A stretch of 64,000 bases of DNA from Vreelandella aquamarina (GTDB taxonomy: Bacteria > Pseudomonadota > Gammaproteobacteria > Pseudomonadales > Halomonadaceae), in the NCBI RefSeq assembly GCF_900110265.1, contig NZ_FODB01000006.1, positions 1 to 64,000 of the forward strand, read 5' to 3'. The notes beneath the pieces were generated by a model. It saw nothing but the letters and a program-made list of their open reading frames with translations, was not told where the DNA came from and did no database searches. How positions within the stretch are numbered: position 1 is the first letter of the stretch; the number at the start of each line of letters is the position of its first letter. This document shows, one piece after another, positions 3,078 to 17,327 of the stretch. The position numbers and the translations under genes are program-made.

Positions 3078-3205
3078 TGCGAGCCATCTCCCTATGTTGT
3101 CGCTCCTCTTCCCTGACACGGAAAGTGTGGAGTGTTCAGCATCACATTAGGCGATGACTATACAGCCGTACACGCACTGAAAAATAGGAAAAAATAGTGC
3201 GCTGG

Positions 3206-4009
3206 TTAGCGTTTCATACGTGCCAGTAACCGCTCGACGGCTTCTAGATGTTCTGGCTCGTTGTGGCACATGCCTTGGAACACGGCGCACACATCCAGAA
3301 ACGGCTTTAGCTCCATATCCGGGGCCATTTTCAAGAGCCGCTTGGTGAGGCGTGTCGCTTTCGGCGGCTGGGCCGCAATGCGCTTGGCATGGGCCAGAGC
3401 GGCCTCCATTAGCTGCTCCGGCTCCACGACTTCTAAGACTACACCGTAGGCAAGCGCTTCATCAGCGCTGATCACCCGGCCTGAGAGGGTTAGCTCAAAG
3501 GCACGCTGGTAACCAATTTGGCGCTGCATAAACCACGCCCCGCCATCACCGGGAATAATCCCCAGATTGAGAAACGTCTCCCCAAAGCTCGCCTTGCGAG
3601 AGGCAATACGCATATCCGCCATATTGGCCAAATCGAAACCGGCACCGATGGCCGCACCATTGACGGCGGCGATGATGGGTACTTCAACTTGATGAAGCGC
3701 CAGCGGCATTCGCTGAATGCCCGTGCGGTAGCGCTCAGCGACTTCAGCTACGTCCCCCGCAAAATCGCCGCCGCGCTCGGCCATGTCTTTTACATTGCCA
3801 CCCGCGCAAAAAGCGCTGCCTGCACCGGTGATCACCAGCACCGAGACGTCCTGGCTATGGTTCACCCATACAGCGGTGGCGACGATATCATCCACCAGCG
3901 CCGTGCCGGTAAGCGCATTACGCACATCGTGGCGGTTAAGCGTGAGCGTTGCCACACGGTTTTCCAGCGTTAGGGTAGCGTCGGTTAATTCAGGTAGCGT
4001 TCGGCTCAT
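3206..4009 (-). CDS. Enoyl-CoA hydratase/isomerase (crotonase) family
   Basis: 267 residues, the usual crotonase length. The oxyanion-hole segments are visible: AFCAGGNVKDM near residue 70 and AAVNGAAIGAGFDLA near 115, with the catalytic region FGETFLNLGIIPGDGGAWF. The chain is complete, ending in a basic C-terminus. Its start codon overlaps the stop of the upstream acyl-CoA synthetase gene in the order ATGA, which indicates translational coupling within one operon. It probably hydrates or isomerises a 2-enoyl-CoA intermediate in breakdown of an organic acid; the substrate is not deducible. Confidence 0.85.
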   Translation of the reverse strand: MSRTLPELTDATLTLENRVATLTLNRHDVRNALTGTALVDDIVATAVWVNHSQDVSVLVITGAGSAFCAGGNVKDMAERGGDFAGDVAEVAERYRTGIQRMPLALHQVEVPIIAAVNGAAIGAGFDLANMADMRIASRKASFGETFLNLGIIPGDGGAWFMQRQIGYQRAFELTLSGRVISADEALAYGVVLEVVEPEQLMEAALAHAKRIAAQPPKATRLTKRLLKMAPDMELKPFLDVCAVFQGMCHNEPEHLEAVERLLARMKR

Positions 4010-6186
4010 GATTGGCGCTCCACAATAATTCGTGCATCGACGATGGCATAGTTAACGGCAGAATGGCCTTTCGGATAGGCAATCACCGGGTTCAAGTCTA
4101 GTTCGCAAATATCTGGGTAAGCCTCTACGAGCTGAGACACCTGCATCAGCAGCGACACTAACGCCTCCTTATCGACCCCTGCAGCCCCCCGCACCCCTGC
4201 CAGCACTTTCTGCGCTTTAATTTGATCGACCATGGAGCGTGCGTCGCGCAGGGTCAGCGGCAGCGAGCGGAAGGCCACGTCTTCGAGCACCTCCACAAAA
4301 ATGCCGCCCAAGCCAAACATCAGCACCGGGCCGAAAATCGGGTCGCGCATCATGCCGATAATCACCTCAACGCCCTTCTCCGCCATTGGCGTGACCAGCA
4401 CGCCCTCTATCTGGGCGTTCGGGTCGTAAGCCTGGGCGTTTGAGTGAATGGCCTGAAAGGCATCGCGCAGTGCGGCGTCACCCACCAGGTTAAGCTTGAC
4501 CCCGCCCGAGTCGGATTTATGCAGGATATCTTTCGAGACCACCTTCATCGCCAGCGGCTTGCCCTGCGTGCACTGGGCGATCTCGGCGAGTTCGTCCTCA
4601 CGACGCACCAACCACTCCTCGGGCACTGCGATGCCGTGCTCCGCCAGCAGTGATTTCGCTTCAAATTCCAGTAAGTCGCGTCCTTCTGCCCTGGCTGCGG
4701 CAAACATGGCCCTGCCTGTTTCCGTTGGCGCGGCGGGCGCTATCGTCTCCTGCGCCTGTTGGATGGCCAGATACTCTCCTCGCTCACCTAGGGCAGCAAG
4801 CACGCGCACCGCATGCTCAATCGAGGAATACACCGGCAAACCGGCTTCGTGTAAACGACGCAACGCAGGCGGTTTGATGGGTGCGTAGAGGCTGTAAATC
4901 ACCAGCGGCTTCTCGGAGGCTTGAGCAAGCTCTACCATGCGCTCCGCGCCACGCATCTCGTCGCCCATCAGCGACTCCGCAAAGCGCAGGCTATACCCGC
5001 CGAACATGCCGACCAGAAAGACGCTATCGACGCCTTCATCCGCCATCACCAGCTCAATGCAGCTTGCCAGCAGCGAGGGGTTCGCATCCGAGGAGCCCGC
5101 CACGTCCACCGGGTTAAGGGTAGATGCCTGAGGCAGTAACACCTCGCGCAGTGCAGAGCGGGTAGCGTCAGAAAGCTCGGCCAGCGTCAGGCCCGCTTCA
5201 GATAACCGGTCGGCGGCAATGGTGGCTTGGCCGCCGCCGTCAGAAATCACAGCGACGCGCTTACCGGGGGCTTTTTGCAGCCGCCCCAAGCCTTCCGCCA
5301 CGGGCAGGATTTCATCGGAGTACTGCACCACGCTAACGCCTGCCTGGCGCAGCAGGTCTACAGTCATTTGATAACTACCGGCCAACGCACCGGTATGGGA
5401 GCTGGCAGCCTTTTGGCCCTGCTCGGTGGCACCGGATTTATACACCACCACCGGCTTCATGGCGGTCACGTCACGGGCCACTTTCAGAAACTGCTGCCCA
5501 TCACGGAAGCCTTCCACGTAGAGCGTCGCCACACGGGTATGCTCGTCTTCCCCTAGGTAGCGCAGGTAATCGTTAAAGCCGATATCACTCTGGTTGCCCG
5601 GGCCAACGTAGGTGCTGAACCCCACTTGCCCGTTATGCTGGGCTTCCAGCGCAAGAGAGAGCAGCATATTGCCGGACTGCGACACAATGCCGATATCACC
5701 CGGCTTGACGTTATCCAGCGCCAGCAAGTTAATTTGGTGGTGCAGGTTAAACATGCCAGAAGTGTTTGGGCCGATGATACGCACTCCGTGGGCACGGGCG
5801 ATCTCCATCATCTGTGCCTCCAGCGCTGCCCCCTCTTCGCCGGTTTCGCCAAACCCGCTGGCCAGAATGACCGCCCCTTTCACCCCCCGGCGGCCACACT
5901 CGGCAATCAGCGCAGGCACGCTGGCGGCAGGCGTGCATAGCAGCGCAAGCTCAGGGCGGCCCGGCATCTCGGTGAGTGAAGGCCACGCCTGCACGCCTAA
6001 AATGTGATCGGCTTTGGGATTGATGGGGTAAATATGTCCCTGGTAGCCGCCATTAATCAGTCCAACCATGGCTTTGTAGCCCCGTTTGGTGGGGTCTGCA
6101 GAAGCGCCTACTACGGCAATGCCAGAGGGCGCTAAGATATCATGCAGCGGGCTGCGGACTGGGAGATGGCCTTCGAGAGTATTCAT
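4006..6186 (-). CDS. Acyl-CoA synthetase, ADP/NDP-forming (acetate-CoA ligase family)
   Basis: 726 residues with the fused alpha-beta architecture of ADP-forming acyl-CoA synthetases. There is an N-terminal CoA-binding Rossmann domain (PSGIAVVGASADPTKRGYKA), succinyl-CoA-ligase-like domains with the conserved SSHTGALAGSY segment that holds the phospho-histidine, and a C-terminal ATP-grasp domain (AMKVVSKDILHKSDSGGV, then FGLGGIFVEVLEDVAFRSLPL). It converts an acid plus CoA and a nucleoside triphosphate to acyl-CoA, or the reverse. Start MNTLEGH at 6186 was preferred over an upstream codon that adds 15 atypical residues. It is the middle gene of an operon with two crotonases, so it probably activates the acid that they then process. 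Confidence 0.85.
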   Translation of the reverse strand: MNTLEGHLPVRSPLHDILAPSGIAVVGASADPTKRGYKAMVGLINGGYQGHIYPINPKADHILGVQAWPSLTEMPGRPELALLCTPAASVPALIAECGRRGVKGAVILASGFGETGEEGAALEAQMMEIARAHGVRIIGPNTSGMFNLHHQINLLALDNVKPGDIGIVSQSGNMLLSLALEAQHNGQVGFSTYVGPGNQSDIGFNDYLRYLGEDEHTRVATLYVEGFRDGQQFLKVARDVTAMKPVVVYKSGATEQGQKAASSHTGALAGSYQMTVDLLRQAGVSVVQYSDEILPVAEGLGRLQKAPGKRVAVISDGGGQATIAADRLSEAGLTLAELSDATRSALREVLLPQASTLNPVDVAGSSDANPSLLASCIELVMADEGVDSVFLVGMFGGYSLRFAESLMGDEMRGAERMVELAQASEKPLVIYSLYAPIKPPALRRLHEAGLPVYSSIEHAVRVLAALGERGEYLAIQQAQETIAPAAPTETGRAMFAAARAEGRDLLEFEAKSLLAEHGIAVPEEWLVRREDELAEIAQCTQGKPLAMKVVSKDILHKSDSGGVKLNLVGDAALRDAFQAIHSNAQAYDPNAQIEGVLVTPMAEKGVEVIIGMMRDPIFGPVLMFGLGGIFVEVLEDVAFRSLPLTLRDARSMVDQIKAQKVLAGVRGAAGVDKEALVSLLMQVSQLVEAYPDICELDLNPVIAYPKGHSAVNYAIVDARIIVERQS

Positions 6187-14645: not shown

Positions 14646-14911
14646 ATGCGGTACGGCCTGGTGCGAGCCCTGATCCTGGGGCTCGCAGTGGGGGCCAGAT
14701 CATGCCCTTCTGAGTCACCGAGCTGGGCCTGCCCATGGACGACCTGACCGAACCCAACCGCAATCTGCGCTACGGCAGCACCATTCTGGCCCACTATCTT
14801 GCCGTCGAGCGGGGTGACTTCACCCGCGCTCTGGCTCGCTACAACGGCAGCCTTGGGCAAACCTGGTACCCCGAGCGGGTATTGAAGGCCTGGCGCGACC
14901 ATTGGCGTTAG
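14646..14911 (+). pseudogene. Broken lytic transglycosylase (SLT domain) gene
   Basis: Ten bases after proS an ATG opens a signal-peptide-like segment (MRYGLVRALILGLAVGA). It runs out of frame into the C-terminus of an SLT-type transglycosylase: GLPMDDLTEPNRNLRYGSTI, then ARYNGSLGQTWYPERVLKAW, to a TAG at 14909. In the C-terminal frame the sequence reads QIMPF-stop-VTELG, where family members have MPFW, so TGG has become TGA at 14711. The middle of the gene, including the catalytic Glu region, is gone. The deletion, frame change and nonsense codon together make it non-functional. An intact relative would cleave peptidoglycan in the periplasm. Confidence 0.75.
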
Positions 14912-14915
14912 CCGG

Positions 14916-16145
14916 TCACTCAGTCACCCTGTCAACCTCTGCTTCAACACTGTGCAGCAAGCCCGCCTTAGCCAGATTGGCCAGCAACTGTGCCACGTCA
15001 CGCGTTACCTGCGGCAGCGACGCCCCTTCGAAGAACGCCACGAGCGTCTCACTCAATTCCTGCAGGTTCATCGGCTCATGCTGCAATAGAGCCCATACTG
15101 CGCGGCTGGTCGCGTTCATTCGATGAATATCACCCCCGTTCTGACCAATCACGAACAGCTCATCGCCCAGCGACCACTCGAAGGCTGCCGGGCTGGTGTG
15201 CCAGTAGCGGGCGTCATCCAAGGGCAGCGCAGGCACCTCCGCCCGTTCAGCACTTGCCACCGATTGCCCCTGCTGCCGATCTGCTGAGAACGGCTGACCC
15301 TCCCAGCGCTGTGCCAGCCACAGGGCTGCCTCATAAGCATCCGAGTATCGCAGCAGAAAGCACGGTAGCCGCTGCAGTAGCGGCAGGAAGCGATCCATCA
15401 GCGCCTGATCCGACTCGTGCTCGGCAAAGTTCTGTTGCAACAACTGCCATAGGCCATCGCCGGGCTGCAGGCGTGTCAGTTGGGGGGCCGTCAACGTGGG
15501 GTCTCGGTCGATCAGCAGCACGGCCCCCAGCGGGGAGCGGTCGCCATGGGCTGCCAGTTGGGAACTCGACAAGTTCAGATAACCGTAACGGTCGTCGAAA
15601 GGACCAAGATGGCAGGCCACGAAGTGCTGAAAATCTACCGACAAGGCCTCCGGGACCGGTAACCGCAAACGCGGTGCCACGCCAAGCGCGATGCCTTCAC
15701 CTTCAGGATTGAGCGCCAGCACATCATCCCCGAATACACGGCAGCCTGCGGCAGCAAATGCCGAGGTCAAGGTGCTTTTTCCAGCACGGTGGGCATCAGG
15801 AAAAATCACCAGCTGCCCGTTGAGCTCCACCGAGCCACAGTGCAAGCCCACCAGCTCAGGGTGGCGATGCAGGAACGCCCCGGCCAAATCGGCGACGACG
15901 CTACAGGCAGTGCCAACATCGGTGTCCAACAAGGCACCCTGGGGCAGCGCGGGCGCTTCCTGCCAGTAGCCGTCGGGGTGCTGCCAAACGCAGATGTCCG
16001 GGGCTTCCGGCAACACCGGGCAGCGTTCGATGGGCCAGCCTGGCATGGCCTGCTGCAACACGGGCAACAGCTCCTCCGCCTCTACCAGGCGCAGGCAGGG
16101 GCCCAGACTGGGCAGGCTGATATCGTGAGTGGTGTGGGTTGTCAT
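14916..16145 (-). CDS. HprK-like kinase fused to a PqqD-type domain
   Basis: 409 residues. The middle has the layout of HPr-kinase-related P-loop proteins: LHCGSVELNGQLVIF, a Walker A-like PDAHRAGKST (116-125) and Walker B-like GDDVLAL (139-145). Residues about 319-400 look like PqqD: GDELFVIGQNGGDIHRMN, ATSRAVWALL, then a winged-helix-like tail ending LLANLAKAGLL. Separate HprK-related kinases and PqqD-like chaperones are known as partners in uncharacterised peptide-modification-type loci; here they appear as one chain. The Walker A has His-Arg where Gly-x-Gly is usual, but GKST is kept. The gene follows a Tat-exported small protein by 6 bp, so both are probably co-transcribed. A true HPr kinase is unlikely given divergence and the PqqD tail. 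Confidence 0.7.
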   Translation of the reverse strand: MTTHTTHDISLPSLGPCLRLVEAEELLPVLQQAMPGWPIERCPVLPEAPDICVWQHPDGYWQEAPALPQGALLDTDVGTACSVVADLAGAFLHRHPELVGLHCGSVELNGQLVIFPDAHRAGKSTLTSAFAAAGCRVFGDDVLALNPEGEGIALGVAPRLRLPVPEALSVDFQHFVACHLGPFDDRYGYLNLSSSQLAAHGDRSPLGAVLLIDRDPTLTAPQLTRLQPGDGLWQLLQQNFAEHESDQALMDRFLPLLQRLPCFLLRYSDAYEAALWLAQRWEGQPFSADRQQGQSVASAERAEVPALPLDDARYWHTSPAAFEWSLGDELFVIGQNGGDIHRMNATSRAVWALLQHEPMNLQELSETLVAFFEGASLPQVTRDVAQLLANLAKAGLLHSVEAEVDRVTE

Positions 16146-16151
16146 CGGCCG

Positions 16152-16496
16152 TTACCACCTTGGCAGTACGCGGCTCAAGCGAATTTCGATGACACCATCG
16201 CGCTCCCAGCGGGATCGATGCGGACGCGAATAGCCAGCCCGGCGACGATCATGAGGGCGGTAGTATCGCTCATCACGACGACGGGCATGATGCTTATGCC
16301 GAGGACGTGAGTAGCTGGGACGTGAGTAGCTGGGACGTGAACGGCTGTGCCGTGAGCGACGGCCGCGCGCTTCCGCCTGCCCCATCGACAGGAACGTGGG
16401 AGCAACGTAGAGCGCTGCGGCACCCAGCCCAAGGCTGGCCAGCACCTGGCGGCGCGAGCGGCGCTTTTGCAATACCTCTTCAGTTTCATGGGGCAT
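16152..16496 (-). CDS. Small Tat-exported Arg/Tyr/His-rich protein
   Basis: 114 residues from an ATG with AGGAGG seven bases upstream. A twin-arginine signal is clear: SRRQVL at 14-19, a hydrophobic core LASLGLGAAALYVAPTFLSM and likely cleavage after AEA near 43. The mature part of about 70 residues is extremely basic, with the tandem motif YSRPSYSRPSYSRP and many Arg, His and Tyr; Cys is absent. It ends in a less biased tail, DGVIEIRLSRVLPRW. No family is recognised. It lies 6 bp upstream of the HprK-PqqD fusion gene. Being the partner of a PqqD-domain protein, it could be the peptide acted on or a carrier; this is inference. Confidence 0.7.
   Translation of the reverse strand: MPHETEEVLQKRRSRRQVLASLGLGAAALYVAPTFLSMGQAEARGRRSRHSRSRPSYSRPSYSRPRHKHHARRRDERYYRPHDRRRAGYSRPHRSRWERDGVIEIRLSRVLPRW
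16304..16347 (+). repeat. 15-bp in-frame tandem repeat
   Basis: GACGTGAGTAGCTGG occurs at 16304-16318 and 16319-16333, then a degenerate third unit starts GACGTGAACGGCTG. On the coding (minus) strand it gives repeated Y-S-R-P-S. Slippage here would change the number of motif units without disturbing the frame. Confidence 0.8.
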
Positions 16497-16719: not shown

Positions 16720-17327
16720 GTGACAGCACATAAGTTTTTGCGCATAATGGGCGACTTGTTTCCCCCAGCAACACGCAAGGCCTGATGTCAGCGCTTCAGG
16801 CCTGGGAAGATCAGGGTATCGCAGAGCTTTACTATTTTGATGAATCTGGGTTTTCCCAGTCATCTGCCTTGCCCTATGCGTGGAGTCCTGTCGGGAAACC
16901 ACTGGAGATGACCGCCTACTCGCGCAGTCGCCGGCTCAACGTACTGGGCTTCCTGAATCGGCAAGGCAAACTGGTCTATCAGTCCACCACCGAGTCGGTG
17001 ACGACGGAGACGGTCATCGCTGCCTTCGACCACTTCATTGCCCAGAAAGCGCCGGATACCTTCGTGATCGTGGTGTTGGACAATGCCAGCATACATCGTT
17101 CGGAGTCCTTCCAACGCAAGCGCCTGGAGTGGCTGGGCCAGCGGGTCCACGTGGTCTACCTGTCGACTTACTCGCCCGAGTTGAACCTGATCGAAATCCT
17201 CTGGCGCCAGGTCAAGTATGCCTGGCTGCCGCTGACCGCCTATGAAAGCTTCGCGACGTTGCGTAGTGAGGTAGAACGGATCCTGTCAGGTTACGGAACG
17301 GAATACGCAATTTCTTTTGCTTAGGTG
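16720..17327 (+). mobile_element. IS630-family remnant, copy A (N-terminal part deleted)
   Basis: The left end (AAGTGACAGCACATAAG and following) and right end (TTTCTTTTGCTTAGGT) match those of the second copy at about 23535-24290. The element jumps at about 16766 from its left end straight to the sequence before codon MSALQAW, losing the transposase N-terminus of about 480 bp. A short TTCC-type match is seen at the junction in the other copy. Exact tips are uncertain. It marks the left side of the accessory island. Confidence 0.75.
16785..17324 (+). pseudogene. IS630 transposase, DDE domain only
   Basis: 179 codons containing the complete IS630-type catalytic domain: first Asp in YYFDESGFS, second in VVLDNASIH, and the Glu in LNLIEILWRQ. 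The N-terminal helix-turn-helix half, still visible in the other copy, is missing, so it cannot recognise the element ends on its own. In the intact element this segment would be read in the -1 frame relative to the first half. Confidence 0.8.

Follow-up and report, generated by a model that had tools for sequence, protein, structure and literature searches.

The stretch of Vreelandella aquamarina DNA analyzed here (contig NZ_FODB01000006.1, positions 1 to 64,000; the window) carries on its minus strand, at 14916–16496, a gene for a 114-residue twin-arginine protein (the precursor) located 6 bp upstream of the gene for a 409-residue protein, in which an HprK-like kinase is fused to a PqqD-type RRE (recognition element of ribosomally synthesized and post-translationally modified peptides, RiPPs). 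We propose, with a probability of roughly 0.55, that the pair is an RRE-guided protein-phosphorylation unit, in which the RRE would hold the signal peptide of the precursor, the kinase would phosphorylate serines of the precursor body, and the twin-arginine translocation (Tat) system would export the product. The pairing of the genes, the fold of the RRE, the fold of the kinase with its catalytic His, Lys, Ser, and Asp-Asp residues, and the leader motif with its partner residues are established by computation. A preliminary description of this DNA had reported the 6-bp spacing between the twin-arginine protein, with its YSRPS repeats, and the larger protein, together with a GKST sequence at residues 122–125 of the latter; these features are read directly from the DNA, and the interpretation given there is, overall, partly supported.

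Pairing and Conservation of the Two Genes

The unit occurs in salt-loving bacteria and in a few distant relatives. In a sample of the genus, the kinase is present in 13 of 37 genomes (that of V. aquamarina included) and the small gene lies directly upstream in all 13, 12 of the small genes being found by pattern and the thirteenth (L027) by reading the locus. The kinase is 98% identical to its Vreelandella stevensii homologue and 95% identical to that of V. hamiltonii. Among 275 genomes of the family, the kinase profile matches 80 at E ≤ 0.001, comprising 64 with a full-length fused kinase and 16 with distant or partial matches, while the leader profile matches 197 at E ≤ 0.01, 64 of which separate at E ≤ 3.5e-15 from the next match at 2.8e-7. 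The 64 genomes with a full-length kinase are the same 64 that have a strong leader match, at cut-offs (kinase E ≤ 3.2e-59, leader E ≤ 3.5e-15) chosen after the gaps in both lists had been seen. The 133 further family genomes have a leader match only, at 2.8e-7 or worse, and at least some of these matches are to other Tat proteins.

Loci with a kinase score of at least 150 bits number 90, in a set that contains duplicates between collections, and the small gene was found by pattern in 88. In Roseovarius (L084) and Seohaeicola (L085) the small gene was missed by the pattern and seen by eye, and it is also present in L171, L172, L188, L189, and L190, from another class of the same phylum. The expectation that homologues of the kinase would be accompanied by the small gene thus holds in 64/64 family genomes with a full-length fused kinase and, outside the class, at 7/7 loci with an RAGK-type fused kinase. 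A search of the G602 family gave kinase matches in 7 of 12 genomes, those in G602, G684, G685, and G686 being full-length and accompanied by a leader. The matches in G311, G690, and G691 are broken by stops, without a convincing leader at their loci, and at two of these three loci the P-loop is GASGAGKS instead of RAGK; the three were excluded from the family after inspection. In a tree with a midpoint root, 15 Halomonadaceae kinases form one group (95/95) and the seven from outside the class lie apart.

Crude gene calls at 59 loci gave several neighbor clusters that are common to Halomonadaceae loci. Only the kinase cluster, among the 22 largest, includes loci from outside the class (six of seven), the outside-class precursors being too dissimilar for the cut used. 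No third gene of these 22 clusters is common to the outside-class loci; for a dedicated peptidase, cyclase, or exporter beside the precursor, no family search was made. The earlier suggestion that the unit may be complete as two genes fits this distribution.

Of 12 precursor-kinase pairs read in the genus sample, five show a 4-bp overlap of the two genes if the first start codon is used. No promoter or terminator was predicted on the coding strand. A chance open reading frame (ORF) was rejected because nonsynonymous divergence (dN) is below synonymous divergence (dS) in both genes and because the pair is found in 64/64 family genomes with the fused kinase. Comparison of the window with eight relatives gives dN < dS in the kinase, the leader, and the tail wherever dS is computable, dS being saturated in the more distant comparisons. 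The tail, which ends in VIEIRLSRVLPRW, has the lowest dN of the precursor parts in six of the eight comparisons and is tied in one, and the repeat body has the highest. In one near relative (L061, 251–592), dS against the window is 0.38–0.84 for the precursor parts and 0.087 for the kinase; since the former values are far above the latter, local recombination of the substrate gene is suggested.

The RRE Domain and the Leader Motif

Pfam identifies a PqqD domain (PF05402) at residues 332–397 of the fused protein (E 7.7e-9; 36.2 bits versus a cut-off of 23.4); the genome contains no other match to this family. As had been anticipated for the C-terminal domain, its modeled structure is that of a PqqD/RRE fold: Foldseek aligns it with the lasso RRE TbiB1 (5v1u/5v1v; TMt 0.84; root-mean-square deviation 1.7–2.3 Å), and the family profile, when compared with solved structures, matches TbiB1 (5.4e-9) and LppB (PDB 9x8z; 3.2e-6). 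In LppB, Asp70 bonds to the leader Tyr and Asn33 holds a kink at the Pro of the YxxP motif; the complex is weakened by D70A and nearly abolished by N33A (PMC13381572). Of 12 aligned RREs, the ten of the YxxP type, including TbiB1 and LppB, all have this Asp (D383 in the window protein, equivalent to D70 of LppB), and the position is occupied by Pro and Val in the two HprK-RRE systems without a YxxP leader (L028 and L176). The position equivalent to Asn33 is Asn, Asp, or Ser among the ten YxxP-type RREs (Asp in two alignment rows).

The matching leader motif, Y..P.[LMF], is present in 72 of 72 precursors (64 from the family and eight from the seven outside loci), which are related to one another and contain 55 distinct leader stretches. 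Residue 6 of the motif is Leu in 64, Met in five, and Phe in three. The strict published form, [Y/W]xxPx[LVIAFY], is found in 67 of the 72, including the precursor from the window, as counted on the leader alone; the body repeats can also satisfy the motif. The motif Tyr lies 14–18 residues after the twin arginine. In a generic Tat control of 30 loci from relatives (about five of the 30 rows being misread), the motif occurs in two, which are alike proteins. Since Tat itself does not require conservation of Tyr and Pro in the signal peptide, the YxxP segment reads as an RRE leader. A single-chain AlphaFold2 probe, in which the intergenic stop was read as Gln, gave predicted local distance difference test (pLDDT) values of 67, 88, 72, and 74 for consecutive ten-residue segments of the leader, with a strand at leader residues 35–38 and pLDDT below 50 for residues 41–111.

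The repeat unit YSRPSY of the precursor body (16218–16367, minus strand) itself conforms to the RRE consensus in its YxxPxY variant. These repeats could be extra RRE docking sites, which would not apply to precursors with GSR or HSR repeats.

At 33 distant HprK loci, a strict RR-leader pattern, which also misses the L084 precursors, identified no convincing leader. By eye, three of these loci (L028, L176, and L177) have RR-signal proteins, which are of a different type and lack YxxP. L176 and L177 contain PqqD-kinase proteins in which the domain order is reversed, near an RR-signal protein of the GRFAA[VF]TPPA type (by eye), and probably represent a parallel system that uses a separate leader code.

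The Kinase Domain

The AlphaFold2 model of the fused kinase, built with 24 family sequences, has a pLDDT of 88.3 and a predicted template modeling score (pTM) of 0.82. Foldseek comparison of this model with the PDB retrieves, besides TbiB1, ATP-dependent phosphoenolpyruvate carboxykinases, with E down to 4.5e-6, and the HPr kinases 3tqf (TMt 0.56), 1ko7, and 1kkm; no Pfam family, Hpr_kinase_C (PF07475) included, matches the kinase part at E ≤ 1. BsfK, a lasso-peptide serine kinase, has the conserved residues H148-G163-G166-G168-K169-S170-D186-D187 (PMC10368454). Residues H102, G122, K123, S/T124, D140, and D141 of the fused kinase are spaced as H148, G168, K169, S170, D186, and D187 of BsfK, and the catalytic pattern (H, GK[ST], DD) fits 67 of 68 kinases, the exception being L120 (G138), where the kinase match consists of two pieces of one open frame. 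The L172, L189, and L190 kinases lie outside the first pattern used and fit a looser one. In the fused kinases the first and second glycines of GxxGxGKS are replaced, and residue 120 is Arg in 67/67.

The Precursor Body and the Putative Export Signal

The precursors are 95–173 residues long, and that of the window has no Pfam match. Their composition was counted for 70 of the 72, L046 and L047 having the gene but being dropped by the pattern. The mature part is basic (isoelectric point 9.2–12, median 11.5), with 8–25% Ser (median 17), 5–34% Arg (median 24), and 0–4% Thr; Tyr is absent from the mature part of five precursors from outside the class. The type of body repeat varies (YSRPS, HSRHSHS, GSRGSR). 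SR or RS steps number 603, versus 413 in shuffles; 55 of the 70 precursors have more of them than their shuffled versions have on average. Trp is the last residue in 57. Because Ser amounts to 8–25% everywhere, while Tyr is sometimes absent and Thr is at 0–4%, Ser would be the hydroxyl target common to the precursors, in line with the specificities reported for LppK (Ser only; PMC13381572) and for BsfK, which accepts Ser or Thr but not Tyr (PMC10368454).

The leader has a twin-arginine motif, a hydrophobic stretch, and an AxA motif, with R15, R16, A41, and A43 invariant in 22/22 aligned precursors. The formate_TAT model (TIGR02811) matches 12 of the 22 at E ≤ 1 (best 5.1e-4), and the V. aquamarina genome encodes TatC (PF00902, E 4.8e-69). 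Export in a folded form, as proposed in the preliminary description, is unsupported: the body is of low complexity, with pLDDT below 50 in the sole model that contains it.

Proposed Mechanism and Alternatives

From these elements we infer binding, Ser phosphorylation, the order of events, Tat export, and a purpose outside the cell, as follows. The RRE at the kinase C terminus would bind the YxxPx[LF] segment that the small protein carries within its twin-arginine signal peptide, with predicted contacts of leader Y30 and P33 with RRE D383 and N344. The HprK-type domain would then phosphorylate serines of the SR-rich repeat body in the cytoplasm, using ATP, after which the small protein, now phosphorylated but still basic and unstructured, would be let go and pass through the Tat translocase. 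The signal peptide would have two functions, first in RRE recognition and then in export, such that export could await modification; the kinase, it seems, would grip its substrate by the export signal, which would act as a handle. The use of Tat rather than Sec would fit because modification in the cytoplasm would have to precede export. Within the YSRPS clade, the RRE could move from one repeat to the next. The role of the product outside the cell is a matter of guesswork; it might be an envelope-bound polycation tuned by phosphate. The more general proposal, that the RRE and Tat read one and the same twin-arginine signal in turn, defining a self-contained two-gene class of SR-repeat proteins that are phosphorylated at multiple sites and exported, with peptide-natural-product machinery turned into a pre-export kinase, is tentative, and we hold it at slightly under even odds.

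If correct, the proposed mechanism would represent a new route of protein modification immediately preceding export, its chemistry being a prediction, and would join RiPP leader recognition to Tat export, a link absent among the literature matches listed. It would also provide a functional hypothesis for the widespread family of fused kinase-PqqD proteins, and a two-gene system, open to direct tests, in which a bacterial protein destined for export is phosphorylated, perhaps at numerous positions.

Several observations weigh against the phosphorylation unit as proposed. Residue 117 is Gly in 2/67 kinases and Glu, Asp, Ala, Gln, or Asn in 65/67, and at the equivalent position of BsfK the G163A substitution harms both solubility and activity (PMC10368454). 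Loss of the G163 equivalent therefore disfavors a simple carry-over of BsfK activity, and kinase activity is not certain. The match to the NCBIfam model HprK_rel_A (TIGR04352) is weak (residues 93–148; 39.3 bits versus a cut-off of 200), and TIGR04353 scores 20.6 bits on the window protein, under its cut-off of 35. The residue equivalent to LppB Asn33 is Asn in 56 and Ser in eight of the 68 kinases, four being unread by the pattern. The curated TAT_signal_seq model (TIGR01409) misses the window precursor and matches only 2 of the 22 precursors at E ≤ 1, the G602 precursor being above the cut-off (20.2 versus 16.7), so that export by Tat is proposed here from the motif. PF14907, into which the nucleoside triphosphate (NTP) transferases of LPP and lasso kinase clusters presumably fall, has 0 matches in the V. 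aquamarina genome, the only genome searched; some lasso clusters with kinases are also without the N gene (PMC10368454). Ala at the Tyr, Pro, or Leu of the YxxPxL motif in BsfA did not stop phosphorylation (PMC10368454). The leader signal in the single-chain probe, judged from pLDDT and the strand alone, is only suggestive.

It is unlikely that the altered P-loop (Arg120, no Gly117) performs another RRE-guided transfer to the small protein, such as nucleotidylation, polyphosphorylation, or formation of an activated intermediate. The Arg120 found in 67/67 kinases and the loss of Gly117 in 65/67, both unlike BsfK and the HPr-rel-A kinase, would be consistent with such a transfer, as would the two phosphates that LppK puts on one Ser (PMC13381572) and the polyphosphorylation of BsfA variants (PMC10368454). 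However, the other catalytic residues of the kinase are retained at unchanged distances, and BsfK G166A, altered at the position of Arg120, has nearly unchanged activity (PMC10368454).

We consider it distinctly unlikely that the fused protein acts chiefly as a chaperone that proofreads the signal peptide, with ATP turnover timing release and no lasting modification being made. The Tat maturation chaperones of redox enzymes are a model for such a role, to which the position of the RRE motif inside the signal peptide, the confinement of strong leader matches to kinase genomes, and the degenerate P-loop would be suited. Contrary to what this role implies, the substrate is without a recognizable folded or redox domain, the catalytic residues of the kinase are kept, and the body is repetitive and Ser-rich, as expected of a target with several sites. 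Some HprK-fold enzymes have other substrates, and the kinase might act on another target (a free metabolite or other protein), with the small basic protein as an accessory or regulator; we give this little credence, given the one-to-one pairing, the tight gene spacing, and the leader motif matched to the RRE. Mere linkage of two unrelated genes, side by side by descent, is hardly credible: several flanking gene clusters are also conserved in Halomonadaceae, but the pair persists in seven outside-class loci without another common cluster (among the 22 largest listed), and family genomes have both genes or neither at the cut-offs used.

Feature Locations and Neighboring Genes

Table 1. Positions of the precursor gene, the kinase-RRE gene, and their parts in the window
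Feature	Position	Strand	Basis
Precursor (substrate) gene, 114 residues plus stop TAA	16152–16496	minus	ORF read directly; homologues; selection
Leader, residues 1–43: SRRQVL, hydrophobic stretch, AEA	16368–16496	minus	Sequence and leader profile
YVAPTF, residues 30–35, of the form YxxPx[LVIAFY], the published RRE-binding motif of lasso/LPP leaders	16392–16409	minus	PMC13381572, PMC10368454
Basic low-complexity body, residues 44–93, YSRPS repeats	16218–16367	minus	Sequence; least constrained part
Conserved C-terminal tail, residues 94–114	16155–16217	minus	Alignment; low dN
6-bp gap between the precursor and kinase genes	16146–16151	minus	Read directly
Fused HprK-like kinase and RRE, 409 residues	14916–16145	minus	ORF, Pfam, AlphaFold2/Foldseek
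HprK/PEPCK-fold kinase domain, about residues 1–285	15291–16145	minus	Predicted structure and comparison
P-loop region DAHRAGKST, residues 117–125; Arg120 at the position of BsfK Gly166	15771–15797	minus	Pattern in 67/68 kinases
Asp140-Asp141, HprK-family metal-binding pair	15723–15728	minus	Alignment; catalytic set from PMC10368454
PqqD-type RRE domain, residues 314–400; N344 and D383 are at the aligned positions of LppB N33 and D70	14946–15206	minus	Pfam, fold, alignment

Just upstream of the pair, a DDE_3 transposase ORF (PF13358, E 4.1e-34) at 16785–17324 (plus strand) is probably a piece of an insertion sequence. On the other side, at 14648–14908 (plus strand), lies a lytic transglycosylase remnant that corresponds only to residues 113–199 of a 199-residue relative; in the two nearest relatives (L060 and L061) the lytic transglycosylase retains residues 38–199, and the deletion adjoins proS.

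In Seohaeicola (L085), a subtilase (PF00082, E 3.6e-25) is encoded at 3161–4534 (plus strand), just upstream of the substrate and kinase genes. It has a Gly/Ser-rich stretch and a leader of similar RR/YVAP type, and is possibly a second substrate or a maturation protease. In Roseovarius (L084), tandem substrates at 4037–4372 and 4550–4891 (plus strand), with very similar leaders, are followed by one kinase; one of these substrates is Gly/Ser-rich and the other Ser/Arg/Tyr-rich.

Comparison with Known Systems

HPr-rel-A, in which a TIGR04352 kinase is accompanied by a TIGR04353 PqqD protein, resembles the present unit in that an HprK-related kinase has both a PqqD-like protein and an RR-signal protein as neighbors (G037/L028, by eye). 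The G037 locus contains the RR-signal protein, the PqqD-like ORF, the TIGR04352 kinase (359.8 bits), and a fourth ORF, which we take to be of the NTP-transferase type. In contrast to the fused protein, the PqqD of HPr-rel-A is separate, its P-loop is GASGSGKST, its leader is without YxxP, and its RRE is without the Asp. HPr-rel-A is a sister arrangement; membership of the window pair in it was rejected, the scores being 39.3 versus 200 bits (TIGR04352) and 20.6 versus 35 bits (TIGR04353). A His-Xaa-Ser system was likewise rejected, a scan of nine proteins giving only a weak HxsA4 match (23.7 versus 55 bits), to the G602 precursor.

The LPP system (LppA/LppB/LppK) shares with the unit an RRE with Asn33 and Asp70, a YxxP leader, and an HprK-type kinase acting on a precursor Ser (PMC13381572). 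However, the LPP RRE is a separate protein, whereas here it is fused to the kinase; the LPP leader is cut by a SipW-like peptidase, whereas here the leader is a twin-arginine signal; and the LPP cluster contains genes for an NTP transferase and an MsbA-like exporter, whereas here no third conserved gene was found (PMC13381572). The phosphorylated lasso peptides (paeninodin type; BsfK/BsfB1) have the same H/K/S/DD spacing and a YxxPxL leader, and their PqqD-type B1 protein speeds phosphorylation (PMC10368454). As in LPP, their RRE is separate, and genes for a peptidase, an NTP transferase, and an exporter or cyclase accompany systems of these two kinds. They differ from the present unit, in which no third conserved gene was found, two P-loop glycines are replaced, and the substrate is a basic repeat protein of 95–173 residues. 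An ordinary lasso or LPP cluster was set aside, with no third conserved gene found and no PF14907 match in the genome, no search for cyclase or peptidase families having been made.

The preliminary description knew of no system with this exact pair, and none is described among the literature matches listed, from a search mostly without subscription papers; the novelty does not extend to the combination of an RRE, an HprK-type kinase, and a YxxP leader, which has already been described for LPP and lasso peptides (PMC13381572; PMC10368454). The DUF2063-associated RREs and their DUF2282 precursors are similar to the present pair in that the precursors carry a general export signal (PMC12710340). 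In that system, the signal is of the Sec type and no RRE motif was found in the leaders (PMC12710340), whereas in the unit described here the twin-arginine signal itself contains the RRE motif.

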